Assembly: GCF_000337735.1 (NCBI RefSeq)
Contig: NZ_AOHX01000002.1
Coordinates: forward strand, 65,810-118,955
DNA length: 53,146 nucleotides
Source of the DNA: Natronorubrum sulfidifaciens JCM 14089
GTDB lineage: Archaea; Halobacteriota; Halobacteria; Halobacteriales; Natrialbaceae
Direction of reading: 5' to 3'
Made by a program: the position numbers and the translations under genes
The notes under the pieces: generated by a model
What the model was told of the DNA's origin: nothing
What the model saw: the letters and a program-made list of their open reading frames with translations, nothing else
Database searches by the model: none
Part shown: positions 11,688 through 20,285 of the stretch, one piece after another
How positions within the stretch are numbered: the stretch's first letter is position 1
How the letters are laid out: every line of letters starts with the position of its first letter

Positions 11688-13379
11688 TTACTCGGCGTTT
11701 GCCATCGCGTTCAGTTCCGATCGGATGTCGTCATCGAGCGTGTACGTCCGTTCGGCGGGTCGATCGAGAACGCCTTCGGTCCGCAACTCCGAGAGCAGTC
11801 CCTGCACTGCGACCGCCGATCGATCGACGCGGTCGGCGACGGCAACTGTCTCGAGCGCTCCGTTTCGGGCCAAGACCACGAGCGATTTTCGTGCTGTTTC
11901 GACGGTACACTGTGACTGGTCGGCCGCGCGCGTGAGTCGGTCGTTGATCCACTCCCCGTCGAAGTCCGCCTCGTCAATCGCTGTCGTCGCTGGCGTGGTG
12001 ACCGGTGACCGATCGCTGGTCGCCATCTCTTCCCTCTCATCCTCCGCAGTCGACTCCCCGAACGGCGTGTAGCCGAACTCGATCTCGTCACCGCCAGCCT
12101 GAATAATCGTCGACTCCGCCGTGGCGTCTCTCTCCTGTGTCGTCTCGAGGTCGGTCACTCGCTCTCGCAGCCGTTTGTTTTCCCCGCGCAGGCGCTCTAT
12201 CGTCTCCGCTCGCGAGTCGAGTTTTGCCTCGAGCGTTTCGATCCGATCGTCTCTCTCGGCGAGTGTCGACTCGAGGTCGTCCCGCTCGGTCTCGAGGGCG
12301 TGGAGTTCGTCGTGGAGTCGCCGTTGTTCGTCCTCTGGCAGTTGTGTCTGAACGGTGTTCGGTCCCGTCAGCGCATCCGCCATCTGCTTGGCCGCACTCG
12401 AGACGTCCCGGGCCGACTCGAGGTCGGCTTCCAGTGTCTCGATGCGTTTTTCTTTTTTCTCGAGTTCGTTCTCGAGTTCGAGGATACGGTTTTCCTCGTG
12501 TTGCTTTCGCTCCGAGATGTCTTGGAGGTCGCCAACGAGCGCATCGGAGACGGACTTCAGTTCGGGCCGTTCGAAGTCGTCGAGTCCGGGCGTCGCGCCC
12601 GCGTCGAAGGTCCGTTTTCGACGGAACTGGACCTTTCGGACATCCGTTTCGGTCCAGTCGGTCTGAACGAACGCCTGTCCGTCGTTGAGTTCCGAGACGA
12701 GTTCCGAGTACTCGGTGTCGATGATTCGGCCGACGACCTTAGTGTCGTTATCCCATGTCAACCGGTGCCAGACGAGCCAGTTCGCCTGCGTGATGAAATC
12801 CTTCTTGACGTCGGCTGGTCGCTGGCTGATCCCGAGGATGCCGAGGCCGTGCTTGCGCCCGCGCTTGCTGATCTTGATCAACAGGTTCCCCGTCTCGCCG
12901 ACGCCGCCACCCTCTGGAATGTACTCGTGGACCTCCTCGACGACCAGCAGGAAGGGCTTTTTCAGCTTCTTCTCTTTGACGAACAGCTGGCGGGCGATCT
13001 TCCGCAGGAGTTCGTCCGCAACCTCTTCGTCGAGGTAGCCCGAGACGTCGAGGATCACCGGGACGTTCTCCTCGAGTGCCAGCGACGCCATCTGTTCGGC
13101 GTGTTCCGGCCCGATTTGGATGTCACACTCCTCGTCGGCCCCGGCGTGGAGCATCTCGTACTCCTCTTTCAGCCCGTAGTACTCGCCGTCGGTGTCGACG
13201 ATCAACAGCGGAAAGCCCGCCTCGAGTAACTCCTCGGCGATGACCGATGCCGTGTTCGACTTTCCAGAGCCCGACTTTCCGGTGACGAATCCGCGGCCGG
13301 TCAGCAACTCAACGACGGGCAGGTACAAGTCCTGTCTGTCGGCCGTCTCGCCGACGAGAATCTCACGTTGGTCGCTCAC
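11688..13379 (-). CDS. HerA-like (DUF87) ATPase with coiled coil and C-terminal winged helix
   Basis: With the GTG start at 13379 the protein has 563 residues. GKSGSGKS (34-41) is the Walker A motif, FLLVVEE (143-149) is Walker B, and the SQRPADVKK segment matches the HerA/FtsK-like sensor region. Residues ~300-430 are a long coiled coil; the last ~80 residues look like a winged helix (ARKSLVVLARNGALETVAVADRV). HerA-type ATPases are hexameric DNA translocases, often in end resection with NurA, but no nurA lies here. I chose GTG because GGTGAT sits six bases upstream and a TATA-like word lies about 35 bp upstream. The frame stays open for another ~100 codons only because it runs through the 9-bp repeat field. 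Confidence 0.85.
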   Translation of the reverse strand: MSDQREILVGETADRQDLYLPVVELLTGRGFVTGKSGSGKSNTASVIAEELLEAGFPLLIVDTDGEYYGLKEEYEMLHAGADEECDIQIGPEHAEQMASLALEENVPVILDVSGYLDEEVADELLRKIARQLFVKEKKLKKPFLLVVEEVHEYIPEGGGVGETGNLLIKISKRGRKHGLGILGISQRPADVKKDFITQANWLVWHRLTWDNDTKVVGRIIDTEYSELVSELNDGQAFVQTDWTETDVRKVQFRRKRTFDAGATPGLDDFERPELKSVSDALVGDLQDISERKQHEENRILELENELEKKEKRIETLEADLESARDVSSAAKQMADALTGPNTVQTQLPEDEQRRLHDELHALETERDDLESTLAERDDRIETLEAKLDSRAETIERLRGENKRLRERVTDLETTQERDATAESTIIQAGGDEIEFGYTPFGESTAEDEREEMATSDRSPVTTPATTAIDEADFDGEWINDRLTRAADQSQCTVETARKSLVVLARNGALETVAVADRVDRSAVAVQGLLSELRTEGVLDRPAERTYTLDDDIRSELNAMANAE

Positions 13380-13403
13380 CAGCCCATCACCGTCGACACC
13401 TGC

Positions 13404-13424
13404 GACGCGTTCATATATTTTATA
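13404..13424 (-). promoter_or_regulatory. TATA box for the HerA-like gene
   Basis: On the reverse strand the word TATAAAATATATGAA lies about 30-40 bp upstream of the GTG start. This supports the short form of the gene and predicts a very short leader carrying the GGTGAT ribosome-binding site. Confidence 0.6.
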
Positions 13425-13499
13425 CTCCGAACACTGACCCTTGAATATTGGCCTCGCGCGTGATGATCCGTGTGTGCGACCGCTGTGGTGAGTTCTCGC

Positions 13500-14363
13500 C
13501 CGACACTCTCTAAACAGCCCACACTTTTCACACAGTGTACACAGTGTATACGATGTACACGGTTCACACTGTTTGCACGTCACCAAGGGTTCGTTGTATC
13601 CGTCCGACTGCGACACTGGTTGATCGCTCACCGAATCACACTGTGTAGATCTTTTACACCGTGTATGCAGTTTCATTGATGCTCGCAGAACAGTTGCGAC
13701 GACACTCGAGTCTCGAATGTGAACCTGCCTCGATTCGGTTTGGCTACGAACTGCTCGAGCGTTCCGAACGCCCTCTGCGGGACATACTGTTTACGCTGTT
13801 CGGACAGTTTACACTTTGTACACGGTGTATACTTTCTAAACTATCTAAACTTTCTAATTGAGATGTCTAACACGGAACTGTCCTACACCCCATCAGAACT
13901 CGACTATGGATAGCTTCTGGTACACCGTTCACACGGTGTCGTCCAATTTGACAGGTACACGGTGTAGACAGTGTAGAATGTGTAGACTGTTTTCCGCTAC
14001 TGTTAAGTCCGATTGATTGAATGATAGGCGTGTTACTCGCCACAGCAGACTGGTTCACTCTCAACTGGACATCGCACAATGTTTCTACCGTGTACACGCT
14101 GTCAGACGCTCGCACACCGTCGCCGGGTCGGACAGTCGTTCGATCGCTCGAGACCGATGCTAACCGAACGGTCTACGCACTCCAGACGGCTTACACAGTT
14201 CACACTGTGTAGACGGTGTTCGAGTTCGAACCTGCTCGGCTCGTCCCGGTCTCGGCGGTATTTCTCCGAACAGTGTCCACGGTCTACACAGTGTCAACCG
14301 TCTCGACCTCGAGCACCGTGTTCGATTTCCGAACGGTCGGCACCGTCCACGCAGTTGCTGTGG
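13500..14363. repeat. Field of 9-bp phased tandem repeats (iterons), candidate centromere or operator
   Basis: The interval is filled with degenerate 9-bp units near TGTACACNG (variants TTCACACNG, TCTAAACTN, TGTAGACNG, TCCGAACGG). Blocks with strict 9-bp period occur at 13500-13580, 13635-13688, 13781-13861, 13919-13953, 13954-13989, 14091-14225 and 14265-14363. The strongest units are 13527-13571, 13808-13852, 13963-13989, 14190-14216 and 14274-14300. All units run in the same direction, but adjacent units form ACACNGTGT, so the array is nearly symmetric on both strands, as expected for a two-fold symmetric binding protein. There are roughly fifty slots, about half of them close matches. Neither CRISPR spacers nor a coding frame explains it. 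It separates the HerA-like gene from the SegAB-like pair. Confidence 0.85.
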
Positions 14364-14368
14364 CGACT

Positions 14369-14374
14369 GAGGTG
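14369..14374 (+). promoter_or_regulatory. Ribosome-binding site that fixes the ParA start
   Basis: GAGGTG lies nine bases before the ATG at 14384. An in-frame upstream start exists at 14216, but it would translate the repeat field into a meaningless xTV tripeptide repeat, so the later ATG is preferred. Confidence 0.65.
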
Positions 14375-14383
14375 TTCTTACGA

Positions 14384-15217
14384 ATGACGACACAGACCCC
14401 ACGCGCCGTCAGCGTCGCCCTCCAGAAAGGCGGCGTCGGCAAAACGACCATCGCGATCAATCTCGCGGAACGACTCGCTAACCGAGACAACGACGTCTTG
14501 CTCGTCGACTTGGACCAGCAGGGCAACGCCACCGAAGGTGTCGGGCTGAGCGAAGCCTACACGAGCGATGTCCACCTTGGCGATGTTCTGGAAGATGGTT
14601 CGGAGACATCGCTCGAGGACGTGATCCGTTCGACCGACGCCTTCGACGTGTTGCCGGCCCACGAGGACTTAGACAGCGTCGAAAACAGCATTCGAAGCGC
14701 GACCTTTGGCGAGTTGTGGATCAGAAACGAGATCGTCGACCCGGTGTTGGGCGAGGAGTACGACTACGTCGTCGTTGACTCGCCGCCGAACCTCGGTCCG
14801 CTCGCCGATGCCTCGCTGATCTCGACACAGAACGTTATCGTCCCGCTGCGGATGAGCGAACCAAGCGTTAGCGGCTTCGAGCGCATGTACACCCAACAGA
14901 TCGGCCCGATCCGCAAGGAGATCGACCTCGACATTCTCGCGATCGTTCCGAACTCGCTCGCCGGCGACAACGAGGAAAAGCGAATCATCGGCGATCTCGA
15001 GGAGTCTCAGTTCGGCGACTTCCTCCCGTCGTTCGCTCGGTCGGACCACTTCGACGATCCCGATTCGCCCGGCCCCGGCCTCCGCGAGCGGATCGCGTTC
15101 AAACGGGCGTGGCGCGAGGGCGTCCCGCTTGCGGCGTACGACCCGGACAACGACATGCTCGAGCGACTCGACGAACTGGCGGCGACCGTCGAACGCGGAG
15201 GTGTCGACGATGCCTGA
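14384..15217 (+). CDS. ParA/SegA-like partition ATPase
   Basis: A 277-residue ATPase of the ParA/MinD (SIMIBI) family. KGGVGKTT at residues 15-22 is the deviant Walker A with its signature lysine, VLLVDLDQQGNAT is the switch I region, and YDYVVVDSPPNLGPL is switch II. ParA proteins form ATP-dependent dimers on DNA and move or position a partner bound to a centromere. The next gene overlaps by 8 bp and encodes a small putative DNA-binding partner. The repeat field immediately upstream is a natural candidate for that partner's site. This layout resembles SegA-SegB of Sulfolobus rather than bacterial ParA-ParB, because no ParB domain is present. Chromosomal partition is inferred; plasmid origin cannot be excluded. 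Confidence 0.85.
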   Translation: MTTQTPRAVSVALQKGGVGKTTIAINLAERLANRDNDVLLVDLDQQGNATEGVGLSEAYTSDVHLGDVLEDGSETSLEDVIRSTDAFDVLPAHEDLDSVENSIRSATFGELWIRNEIVDPVLGEEYDYVVVDSPPNLGPLADASLISTQNVIVPLRMSEPSVSGFERMYTQQIGPIRKEIDLDILAIVPNSLAGDNEEKRIIGDLEESQFGDFLPSFARSDHFDDPDSPGPGLRERIAFKRAWREGVPLAAYDPDNDMLERLDELAATVERGGVDDA

Positions 15218-15632
15218 GGACAACCGGTTCGCCGGGCTCAGCGAGGCCGTCGACGAGGACGATTCTGACGATTCCGTTGACGAGTCGACGAGCGACGGTG
15301 ACTCGAGTGCGACGACGGTCGAGTACGATTCGGCCGCGGACGAAACAGCGATCGACGACGAACCGTCCGCCGACAGCGCCGACGGCGAATCGACCGACGT
15401 CGACGACCCCACCGCGTTTCCGTTCGACGCGACGGAAAAGAAGACGGTGTATGTCCGTCCCGAAACGATCGACGCACTCGAGGACGCGCGGGCGCTAGTC
15501 GACGCCCAGTTGCGAACCGACCACGACGTTCGCGATCTGACCGGTCGGGAGTTCTACGACGCGGTCTTCCGGCTCGCAGCCGCCGATACCGACGGCTTGA
15601 TCGAGGAACTGCTCGAGGCCCGCGAGGAGTAG
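15210..15632 (+). CDS. Putative SegB-like partner with disordered acidic N-terminus and RHH-like C-terminus
   Basis: A 140-residue protein. Residues 1-74 are acidic and low in complexity (Asp, Ser, Glu) and probably disordered. Residues 77-84 (KKTVYVRP) look like a beta strand, followed by a helix at 85-101 and a second at 111-124 (TGREFYDAVFRLAA), consistent with a ribbon-helix-helix fold; a short helical tail follows. Sulfolobus SegB has the same plan of flexible N-terminus plus RHH domain. The ATG overlaps the end of the ParA gene by 8 bp, so translation is probably coupled. It should bind the upstream 9-bp repeats as a dimer. The fold is inferred from pattern, not from a database match. 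Confidence 0.6.
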   Translation: MPEDNRFAGLSEAVDEDDSDDSVDESTSDGDSSATTVEYDSAADETAIDDEPSADSADGESTDVDDPTAFPFDATEKKTVYVRPETIDALEDARALVDAQLRTDHDVRDLTGREFYDAVFRLAAADTDGLIEELLEAREE

Positions 15633-17723: not shown

Positions 17724-18089
17724 ATGGTTCATCTCGAGTGGGAAACCGATCGTCGGAACGGCGTCACGTTCGTCTCGGCGATCGTACACAACGAGCAGCC
17801 AACACCACAGACCGTCCGCCTCGAGAGTCGATTCGACGGACCAACGTGGTCGCCCCGAGGAGACGCTGACACCGCTCTCGAATGGGACGGCGATCTCTGG
17901 ACGGGAACGATCGCCCCGAAACGCCATCGTGGCGTGGGTTTTGCAACGCCAGCAGCGCCAGTGGAGCCGCCACTCGAACTCGTCGACGCATCTCGCACAT
18001 CGGATACTACCGGAACTGAATCCGAGGCAGTGGTTCAGTCTCTCGACGAGTGGCAACCACCAAGAGACGTTCTGACCCGGATTCCATGA
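17724..18089 (+). CDS. Conserved haloarchaeal hypothetical protein (beta-rich)
   Basis: A 121-residue acidic protein. The first ~80 residues are rich in predicted beta strands (HLEWETDRRNGVTFVSAIVHNEQ, TVRLESRF, LEWDGDLWTGTIAP) and resemble a small Ig-like sandwich. I recall a similar haloarchaeal domain, DUF7857, but am not certain. No catalytic or membrane motif is seen. Its stop codon overlaps the ATG of the MinD-like gene (ATGA), so the two are translationally coupled, which suggests it is a partner of that ATPase. Confidence 0.65.
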   Translation: MVHLEWETDRRNGVTFVSAIVHNEQPTPQTVRLESRFDGPTWSPRGDADTALEWDGDLWTGTIAPKRHRGVGFATPAAPVEPPLELVDASRTSDTTGTESEAVVQSLDEWQPPRDVLTRIP

Positions 18090-18763
18090 TCGTCGCCGTG
18101 ACTGGTGGCAAAGGCGGCGTCGGCAAGACCACGGTGGCGCTAAACCTGGCTCGAGAACTCGACGCCGTCGTCGTCGACGCCGATCTCACAACACCCGACC
18201 TCCCGCGCAGTGGTGGGCCTGATCTGCACGACCTCTTGGCCGGGCGCGCGAAGCCGCGTGAAGCACTCACACAAATTGGTTCTGTGCGTGTCCTCTCTGC
18301 AGGCAGAACGCTCGCCGGTACACGCGCGGCCAAGCTGACGGCGTTCCCTGAAATCGTCGACCGGGTTGAACGCCGATGTGGACACGTCGTCGTCGACTGT
18401 CCGGCAGGGCTGGCCCGTGACGTTGGCATCGCACTCGACAGCGCCCACGTCGCGGTGCTCGTCACCACGCCGACCGAGCCGGCGGTGGTCGATGCACTTC
18501 GGACGCGCCAGCTTGCACTCGAGCTCGAGACGCCAATCGCAGCGGTCGTCCTCAATCGGACGTCGACTATCGACACCGAGCGCTTCGACCGCAATTTCGC
18601 CGCGCCGACGATCGCGATCGACGAACTGTCGACCGTTGTTGAGGCACAACGACAGTGGCGTCCGGTTCGAGATGTCGATCCAACGTGTTCGGCCGTTGAA
18701 AACTTCGAAACGATCGCGCGGTCTGTCGAACGCTGCGAGCAACGCCGTTCTCGTCACCGCTGA
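18086..18763 (+). CDS. MinD/ParA-like ATPase
   Basis: A 225-residue SIMIBI-class ATPase. VTGGKGGVGKTTVALNL gives the deviant Walker A (KGGVGKTT, residues 9-16), VVVDADLTTPDL is switch I, and HVVVDCPAGLARD is switch II. It is shorter than typical MinD (about 260 residues), and the C-terminal amphipathic membrane helix is not obvious. Haloarchaea carry several MinD paralogs that position archaella, chemoreceptors or pili at the poles, and such a role fits the pilus-like cluster that follows. The ATG at 18086 is chosen because it overlaps the upstream stop; the frame is open further 5' only inside the preceding gene. Confidence 0.85.
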   Translation: MIVAVTGGKGGVGKTTVALNLARELDAVVVDADLTTPDLPRSGGPDLHDLLAGRAKPREALTQIGSVRVLSAGRTLAGTRAAKLTAFPEIVDRVERRCGHVVVDCPAGLARDVGIALDSAHVAVLVTTPTEPAVVDALRTRQLALELETPIAAVVLNRTSTIDTERFDRNFAAPTIAIDELSTVVEAQRQWRPVRDVDPTCSAVENFETIARSVERCEQRRSRHR

Positions 18764-18807: not shown

Positions 18808-20145
18808 TTACGCTGTTTCGAGTCCCGGCTCGATCGGTATCGGCTTCGAGTCGTCGAACGCGAGCTCGATCGTCGCCGTCATCGTACTGTCGGCGCGAAA
18901 CTTCCGTACGGACAGTTCGTGTCTCACGTCTCGACCGGATTCCGCTATCGTCGTCTGAAGATCGAAGACGGCGTCGACGGCATGGATCGTCTCTACTCGA
19001 TTGGCCGGCGGTGTCGGCTCAGTCAAACAGTGTAGCACGGCGATACTCTCACACTCGACCATCCGCTCTTTGAGATCGTTCAGAAACGAGACGTACGCTC
19101 GCCTCTCGTGGCGCTCGAGTCCGGCAATCGGGTCGATAAGCAGGGTGACTCCTGCTGGGAGTGTCTCGAGCAGTTCCGTCGCGTCCTCGAGTGTGTCTGC
19201 ACCTGTGAGGTGGCGGATCGTTGGGGACCCGGTCTCCACTGTGGTCGATTCGATCGCTCGGCAGACGTTCGCTCTCGACCGCGCAGTCGAGAGATACAGC
19301 GTTCCCCGGGGTGCAGTCAGCTGATACAGCAATTGTTCCGACTGACTCGCTGGTGGGGCTGAAAACGCCACCACTGATCCCGGCGTGAGCCCACCACCGA
19401 GGGCGTGATCGAGCGCAGTGATTCCCGTCGGAAGCAACTCGTCATCGTACTCCGGTGGCGTCCGAGCCGTCGCATTCCGTCTCTGTAGCGTCTTGATAAT
19501 CTCTCCGTATGCGTGCTGTGTCGCCTCGTCCGTCAGCGGCGTCTCCGTCTCGGGGATTAGTCCCAGTATCGGAACGTTGACCCACGACTCAATCGCATCT
19601 GGGACCGTCTCACACCGATTCAGTACGGCTCCGAGCACTGGCACTTCGAGCCTGCGAGCCATCTCTACTGTCGTCTCCGCAGCGTTGATGCTGCGTTCGG
19701 TCGCGGTCGTCACGACGATCACGCCATCGGCGGCCGACAGCGGTTCGACGACGTCCGGCCCCGCGCCCGACGGACAATCGACAAACGGCTGGACCGTCTT
19801 CGACTCGAGGCGCTCGAGCACTGACTCGATCGCGCCCCGTTCCGACGGTGTCGGGGCCGGAACGATCCCTGCGTTCGACGCTCGCGGACTCCGTTGGGCG
19901 ATCGACTGGAGTTCGGTAGCCGTCTTTGTAGGCGACGTATCGCCCGAGTTCGTTGGTTTCCCAGTCGGCTCGAGTGCCGCAAGCGTCGGCTCGCGGTCGA
20001 CTCCTGCCGTGACATGGAGATTCGGGAGTTGCCGGTCGGCATCAATCGCAACTGATGCCATCCCTGCTCGGGCGAACGCCTCGGTGAGCCCGATCGTCGT
20101 TACTGTCTTGCCACAGCCGCCTTTCGATCCAGCGATAGCGATCAT
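18808..20145 (-). CDS. MinD-like ATPase fused to a RecA/KaiC-like domain with degenerate P-loop
   Basis: A 445-residue, two-domain protein. Residues 1-215 are MinD-like: KGGCGKTV (8-15) is the Walker A, VAIDADRQLPNL is switch I, PFVDCPSGAGPDV is switch II. From about residue 239 a RecA/KaiC-like domain begins with LLPTGITALDHALGGGLTPGS, the usual entry to such domains, but the expected P-loop reads SAPPASQSEQ and lacks the Gly-Lys-Thr core. The aspartate strand LLIDPIAGL is kept. The second domain therefore probably binds a partner instead of hydrolysing ATP. I recall DUF7125 for this region in haloarchaea. The start at 20145 is the Met immediately before the first beta strand. The gene converges on the smaller MinD-like gene. 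Confidence 0.75.
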   Translation of the reverse strand: MIAIAGSKGGCGKTVTTIGLTEAFARAGMASVAIDADRQLPNLHVTAGVDREPTLAALEPTGKPTNSGDTSPTKTATELQSIAQRSPRASNAGIVPAPTPSERGAIESVLERLESKTVQPFVDCPSGAGPDVVEPLSAADGVIVVTTATERSINAAETTVEMARRLEVPVLGAVLNRCETVPDAIESWVNVPILGLIPETETPLTDEATQHAYGEIIKTLQRRNATARTPPEYDDELLPTGITALDHALGGGLTPGSVVAFSAPPASQSEQLLYQLTAPRGTLYLSTARSRANVCRAIESTTVETGSPTIRHLTGADTLEDATELLETLPAGVTLLIDPIAGLERHERRAYVSFLNDLKERMVECESIAVLHCLTEPTPPANRVETIHAVDAVFDLQTTIAESGRDVRHELSVRKFRADSTMTATIELAFDDSKPIPIEPGLETA

Positions 20146-20285
20146 GCCGACACTGGGTCGCCTTCCTTTTTGAACCTCAGCACCGTGGGCGTCCGTGATA
20201 GCTGTCTTCGCTGGTCGCCGGCCCGCCCGAGCTGTCACGTCTGTCTGCCACTCGCACCCGGGACCCGTCTGATACTGATTCGGCC

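Follow-up and report, generated by a model that had tools for sequence, protein, structure and literature searches.

Upstream of a parA gene in Natronorubrum sulfidifaciens JCM 14089, we found an array of about 50 slots of a 9-bp unit, spread across 860 bp, which surrounds a promoter-like block and accompanies the gene pair formed by parA and the small gene that follows it. At most parA loci examined across the Halobacteria the spacing of such arrays stays at 9 bp while the unit itself changes from lineage to lineage. The array is likely to be both the centromere (parS-like) and the operator of a type Ib-like plasmid partition locus, in which dimers of the small protein encoded at 15210..15632 would occupy one 9-bp unit each. 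The window of 53,146 nucleotides analysed here belongs to a contig of 155 kb (NZ_AOHX01000002.1) in a draft genome of 3.46 Mb; related loci from other haloarchaea were examined along with it.

Layout of the locus and of its 9-bp array

The intergenic region holding the array (13380-14383) lies between parA and a divergently oriented gene for a HerA-like ATPase, which forms the left boundary of the array (Table 1). The promoter-like block contains a TATA-like TTAAGT at 14003-14008 and, judging from its letters, may act as the parA promoter, in which case the leader would be about 350 nt long. As in type Ib partition loci, the ParA is without an N-terminal HTH (its PF13614 match begins at residue 6), the small gene lies directly downstream of parA, overlapping it or within a few bp, in most of 100 loci, and the repeats are found upstream of the operon, over its putative promoter. 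Elsewhere in the window, the gene at 18808-20238 encodes a fusion of a MinD/ParA-like ATPase with a DUF7125 (KaiC-like) domain and adjoins a MinD-like gene at 18050-18763.

Table 1. Coordinates of the features of the parA locus (window numbering).
Feature	Positions	Strand	Basis and remarks
HerA/DUF87-type ATPase, long coiled coil, C-terminal extension	11688..13379	-	Pfam PF01935, E 1.4e-12
9-bp tract 1	13503..13579	.	HMM decode, register 0
9-bp tract 2	13637..13673	.	HMM decode, register 0
Weak 9-bp tract	13749..13770	.	HMM decode, register 2; lost at stricter settings
9-bp tract 3	13784..13856	.	HMM decode, register 2, 8 slots
9-bp tract 4	13921..13939	.	HMM decode, register 5
9-bp tract 5	13956..13992	.	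HMM decode, register 4; end meets promoter-like block
Promoter-like block, TTCCGCTACTGTTAAGTC...CTCGCC	13992..14042	+	Core kept in 12/12 related loci
9-bp tract 6	14066..14116	.	HMM decode, register 6
9-bp tract 7	14166..14220	.	HMM decode, register 6
9-bp tract 8	14266..14355	.	HMM decode, register 0, 10 slots
Shine-Dalgarno-like GAGGTG	14369..14374	+	Read from sequence; precedes parA ATG at 14384
ParA-type ATPase, 277 aa, AAA_31, KGGVGKTT Walker motif	14384..15217	+	PF13614, E 8.8e-36
Presumed centromere-binding protein, 140 aa	15210..15632	+	8-bp overlap with parA; alignment of 46 relatives; AlphaFold models

The initial annotation had described 13500-14363 as a field of 9-bp units in at least seven blocks with register shifts between them. 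Its periodicity was confirmed by autocorrelation of 13480-14386 against 500 dinucleotide shuffles, which gave z values of 6.5, 7.9 and 5.2 at periods 9, 18 and 27, respectively; at periods 3 and 6 z was negative, and the periodicity is therefore not codon-derived. A cyclic 9-state HMM fitted to the array yielded a log-likelihood ratio of 168 and decoded nine tracts, one of them weak, covering 461 bp in total, with registers in the order 0, 0, 2, 2, 5, 4, 6, 6, 0 mod 9, so that the block structure had been read correctly; the two runs singled out as examples, eleven slots at 14265-14363 and nine at 13781-13861, were recovered nearly exactly as tracts 8 and 3. With up to two mismatches, ACACNGTGTACAC has 39 matches in the window against 3.3 expected, a number reached by none of 100 shuffles, and 31 of the 39 fall within 13530-14298. 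The search of the window for a second array returned none, leaving the one upstream of parA as the sole array.

The unit of the window clade is near TGTACACNG and becomes almost two-fold symmetric once tiled; the self-palindromy of the corresponding unit cluster is 0.97. Distances from hit to hit in 12 related loci are mostly 9n and 9n +/- 2, where the offset of 2 corresponds to the mirrored register of this symmetric unit.

Constant pitch and changing unit in Halobacteria

N. bangense and N. aibiense have complete plasmids, of 213,905 and 207,310 bp respectively, that encode a ParA 96-97% identical to that of the window. The order herA-like gene, array, parA, small gene is kept in all 12 loci examined from Natronorubrum, Natrononativus and allies, and at period 9 these arrays individually reach z values of 5.5 to 10 despite large sequence drift between species. 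In every one of the 12, the array flanks on both sides a block around TTCCGCTACTGTTAAGTC that has the look of a haloarchaeal promoter and stands about 345-545 bp before parA. The herA-like neighbour, present in 12/12 of these Natronorubrum/Haloterrigena-type loci and invariably divergent from parA in them, is replaced by other neighbours in Haloferax; since it is absent beside the array there and in other groups, the HerA-like gene is context, and the system does not depend on it. The 207-kb N. aibiense plasmid has one other clearly similar array, of 64 bp, and none of comparable size. This short array (CP045491, 109573-109636) consists of the same 9-bp units, has an MTH865-family gene on one side and a bacterio-opsin activator gene on the other, lies roughly opposite par on the circular plasmid, and is possibly a secondary binding site. 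On the N. bangense plasmid (L059, 7638-8828), rdfA (rod-determining factor) and an SMC-related gene specific to archaea lie some 2.4 kb from the par locus.

The initial annotation had made conservation in orthologous intergenic regions a test of its claim and knew of no comparable array in haloarchaea; the array proved conserved well beyond the genus and is found at most haloarchaeal parA loci examined. Of 214 genomes sampled across the order, 93 have the ParA (E up to 1e-40), and the 500 bp upstream of parA were analysed at 100 non-redundant loci out of 137 collected. All statistics rest on related sequences and not on independent samples; so read, the best period between 5 and 30 was 9 in 80/100 of these regions and a multiple of 9 in 89/100, while at about 11 loci no multiple of 9 came out best. 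As controls, a best period of 9 was obtained in 89 of 1000 random plasmid windows (mostly coding) and in 4 of 28 intergenic stretches taken from the window and from the plasmid of N. aibiense, and the largest 9-bp signal in this latter, modest set was exceeded by 75% of the parA loci. A cyclic 9-state model fitted to each locus on both strands scored above the largest of 100 shuffled fits in 88/100 loci, with a median likelihood ratio of 69 vs a shuffle mean of 18.5; models of width 6, 7, 8, 10, 11 and 12 reached medians of 14-32, far below width 9. Loci on contigs as large as chromosomes, 17 in number, gave a weaker signal (median 43 vs 77, p 0.003). In PLSDB, 156 plasmid records carry the pair, and the match covers ParA well in 155 of them.

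The pitch is constant at 9 bp, and the unit varies by lineage (TGTNTANAC, ACCTATTNN, CTATTNNNN, CCTNAGGNA and others). Clustering of the fitted units gave a TGTNTANAC class of 29 loci, a mixed ACCTATTNN/CCTNAGGNA class of 26, a CTATTNNNN class of 5 and three singletons. The near two-fold symmetry noted at the outset holds for the window clade and fails as a general rule, the CTATT class having a self-palindromy of 0.16. On plasmid PHS1 of the model organism Halobacterium salinarum, units keep phase between -288 and -118 apart from a single 1-bp shift, a TATA-like box follows at -100, and inverted units continue strictly in phase from -90 to -18 (relative to the aligned parA start), such that this CTATTNNNN array (L067, 2700-2995) inverts at the promoter-like region of parA. 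The PHS1 ParA is also matched in records of pNRC100 and pNRC200 size, and the PHS1 relative of the small protein is the product of OE_RS10815.

Unit distance was correlated with small-protein distance (Mantel r 0.585, p 0.001) and with ParA distance (Mantel r 0.717); the two proteins are inherited as a pair, and a partial Mantel test of the small protein over ParA as the partner of the unit gave no separation (partial r 0.02). When pairs residing in the same genome were compared, a unit similarity of 0.75, a threshold picked by eye, was reached in 0/30 comparisons vs 14.5% between genomes (P ~0.009), one value of 1.00 being left out because it came from a single locus counted twice. This difference between co-resident pairs fits partition incompatibility; replicon incompatibility alone could also explain it. 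A second parA pair of the source genome lies on a different contig (L046, G000:C61:9952-11201), has another unit, ACCTATTNN, and stands about 1.1 kb from an orc1 gene.

The small protein and the proposed function of the array

An alignment of 46 relatives of the small protein revealed a common N-terminal tip near PF-x-DL (RFAGL in the window protein), an acidic disordered linker whose length varies, and a C-terminal domain in which F70, Y81, E114, A118 and R138 are invariant and R83 and R113 nearly so. The AlphaFold models have a low-confidence linker, an extended segment at about 77-83 and helices at 84-105, 112-125 and 127-139. A strand-helix-helix order is that of RHH proteins, in which the strand forms only in the dimer; the first helix, at 22 aa, is long for RHH. 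Searches of the protein and its relatives against Pfam, NCBIfam, PHROGs and PADLOC gave nothing credible, and sequence-profile searches of PDB and Foldseek searches with full-length and domain models returned no RHH or other match, an absence that is not proof. Likewise, hhalign against CopG and Arc sequences did not reach significance, and no SegB chain was among the PDB matches of the small-protein profile at E up to 10. The earlier description as RHH-like agrees with the order of secondary structure predicted here, and no family or fold match was obtained; an RHH-like fold is plausible from the models but unproven, since neither sequence nor fold matches a known centromere-binding protein.

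By analogy with Omega of pSM19035, we propose that dimers of the 15210 protein would bind the array one per 9-bp unit, packed side by side, and that the packed dimers would nucleate a partition complex. The conserved N-terminal tip would then dock on the nucleoid-bound ParA ATPase, recruiting and stimulating it, and the multi-slot tracts may serve as separate platforms for ParA activation. The same dimers would occlude the promoter embedded in the array, leading to repression and thus autoregulation. Under this scheme the fixed 9-bp pitch would derive from dimer packing and the sequence of the unit would give plasmid-specific recognition. Constant spacing with changing letters is what is expected from side-by-side packing of one binding protein, and it is hard to explain by slippage or coding. 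The earlier proposal of a centromere that is also the operator of the pair is thus the best-supported reading, given the plasmid-borne ParA pair, the promoter-like block and a pitch kept in most of the order while the unit varies with the pair, with binding and segregation as its conjectural part.

An array that is only an operator, through which the small protein autoregulates parA while the true centromere lies elsewhere or partition is absent, would account for the flanking of the promoter-like block in all 12 relatives and for the repeats on both sides of the TATA-like box in PHS1. We consider it unlikely, as an operator rarely needs some 50 slots over 860 bp, the array reaches several hundred bp upstream of the promoter-like block, and apart from the single 64-bp array the 207-kb plasmid of N. 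aibiense offers no other site of comparable size. That the array is a field of origin iterons bound by an initiator (Orc1/Cdc6 or Rep) is very unlikely: iterated sites are common at origins and several related pairs are near orc1 genes, but the window contig has no full-length orc1 match (one partial match of 32 residues is at C2:123323), the orc1 gene seen in N. aibiense is at 117 kb, far from par, and the array stays with parA whatever the neighbour, its units diverging along with the pair.

If anything, it is more improbable that the pair positions some other cargo, or forms a defence or regulatory system with the array as its regulatory site. ParA relatives do position many cargos (PMC11588486) and the neighbour here is HerA-like, a type also met in defence loci; against this, HerA is not kept as a neighbour beyond the clade, plasmid records with this ParA number over 150, and co-resident pairs have different units. 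Least credible of all is a coding origin of the repeats, whether they encode a repetitive peptide (VSTVYTVSTV...) or extend ParA at its N-terminus, even though the ParA frame is open some way upstream in relatives and the parA-adjacent tract reads TVSTVYTV. One motif recurs in registers 0, 2, 4, 5 and 6 mod 9, and the same motif in several registers indicates a constraint on the DNA. In N. bangense (G007) the ORF located upstream at 14021 is interrupted, the period-3 signal falls short of that in shuffles, and a Shine-Dalgarno-like site precedes the ATG at 14384. Because the tract registers differ and the upstream ORF is not kept, the array is not a coding repeat.

How haloarchaeal megaplasmids segregate and what archaeal centromeres look like are open questions (PMC5120986), and the literature searched contained no described haloarchaeal plasmid centromere. 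The 9-bp arrays are probably a so far undescribed class of plasmid centromere. The chances seem evenly balanced that this class is order-wide in scope, with an invariant 9-bp pitch, a new family of binders (RHH-related or distinct in fold) and a unit repeatedly altered by these binders, so that haloarchaeal megaplasmids would have a modular partition-compatibility code. The locus offers a cis site and a pair of proteins open to experiment in laboratory species (Halobacterium salinarum PHS1 and Haloferax mediterranei pHME505), a sequence rule predicting which plasmids should be incompatible, a marker by which plasmid contigs can be recognized in draft assemblies, and a natural experiment in how the specificity of a DNA-binding protein changes at a fixed packing distance.

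Comparison with known partition systems

In the delta/omega/parS system of the Streptococcus plasmid pSM19035, every 7-bp unit is occupied by one Omega dimer, and ParA activation requires four or more repeats in a contiguous row (PMC9499535). The haloarchaeal locus shares with it a short ParA, a small dimeric binder with a flexible N-terminus (here predicted) and contiguous unspaced repeats over promoters. It differs in its 9-bp unit and about 50 slots, as opposed to 7-bp WATCACW in 7-10 copies per site, in its single overlapping operon instead of separate promoters, and in the sequence of the binder, which is unrelated as far as tested. An Omega-type centromere as such was rejected, since width 7 gave a median likelihood ratio of 14 vs 69 for width 9 and the unit is TGTNTANAC, not WATCACW; the resemblance to Omega heptad sites pointed out in the initial annotation nevertheless stands as a precedent, so the 9-bp variant is not wholly without parallel.

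ParB of the Leifsonia plasmid pCXC100 has an RHH fold and a centromere made of direct repeats only, upstream of parAB (PMC5016525). The present locus has the same arrangement of a repeat centromere, here presumed, upstream of an operon for parA and the binder; unlike the bacterial case of one plasmid, it belongs to an order-wide class with changing units. The pCXC100 repeats are reportedly about 9 bp long and, if this is right, would be the nearest precedent for the pitch. TP228 ParF/ParG/parH likewise combines a type Ib ParA, a small RHH protein with a mobile N-terminal tail, and repeats upstream of parFG (PMC5016525), but those repeats have AT-rich spacers whereas the haloarchaeal arrays are contiguous and of fixed pitch.

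The locus had also been labelled SegAB-like, and as in the SegAB loci of Sulfolobales an archaeal ParA-family ATPase gene is followed by an overlapping gene for a small, here presumed, DNA-binding protein. SegB binds scattered chromosomal 13-bp palindromes, TCTAGASTCTAGA, and euryarchaeal sites may be more degenerate (PMC12284271). The label was not supported: among PDB matches the window ParA is nearer to bacterial Soj (E 3e-21) than to SegA (E 8e-12), and TCTAGASTCTAGA with up to three mismatches occurs at chance in the window (8 matches vs 7.9 expected).

Haloviruses phiH1, phiCh1 and ChaoS9 also encode a ParA (identity about 31%), and the small gene that comes next overlaps parA and specifies a charged linker. 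Beside their parA loci (L194, L195, L196) no clear 9-bp array was seen, and these loci are possibly a distant version of the system that does without it. The phiCh1 genome carries TTATCAAAC/GTTTGATAAG repeats near parA, of which phiH1 has at least one copy.
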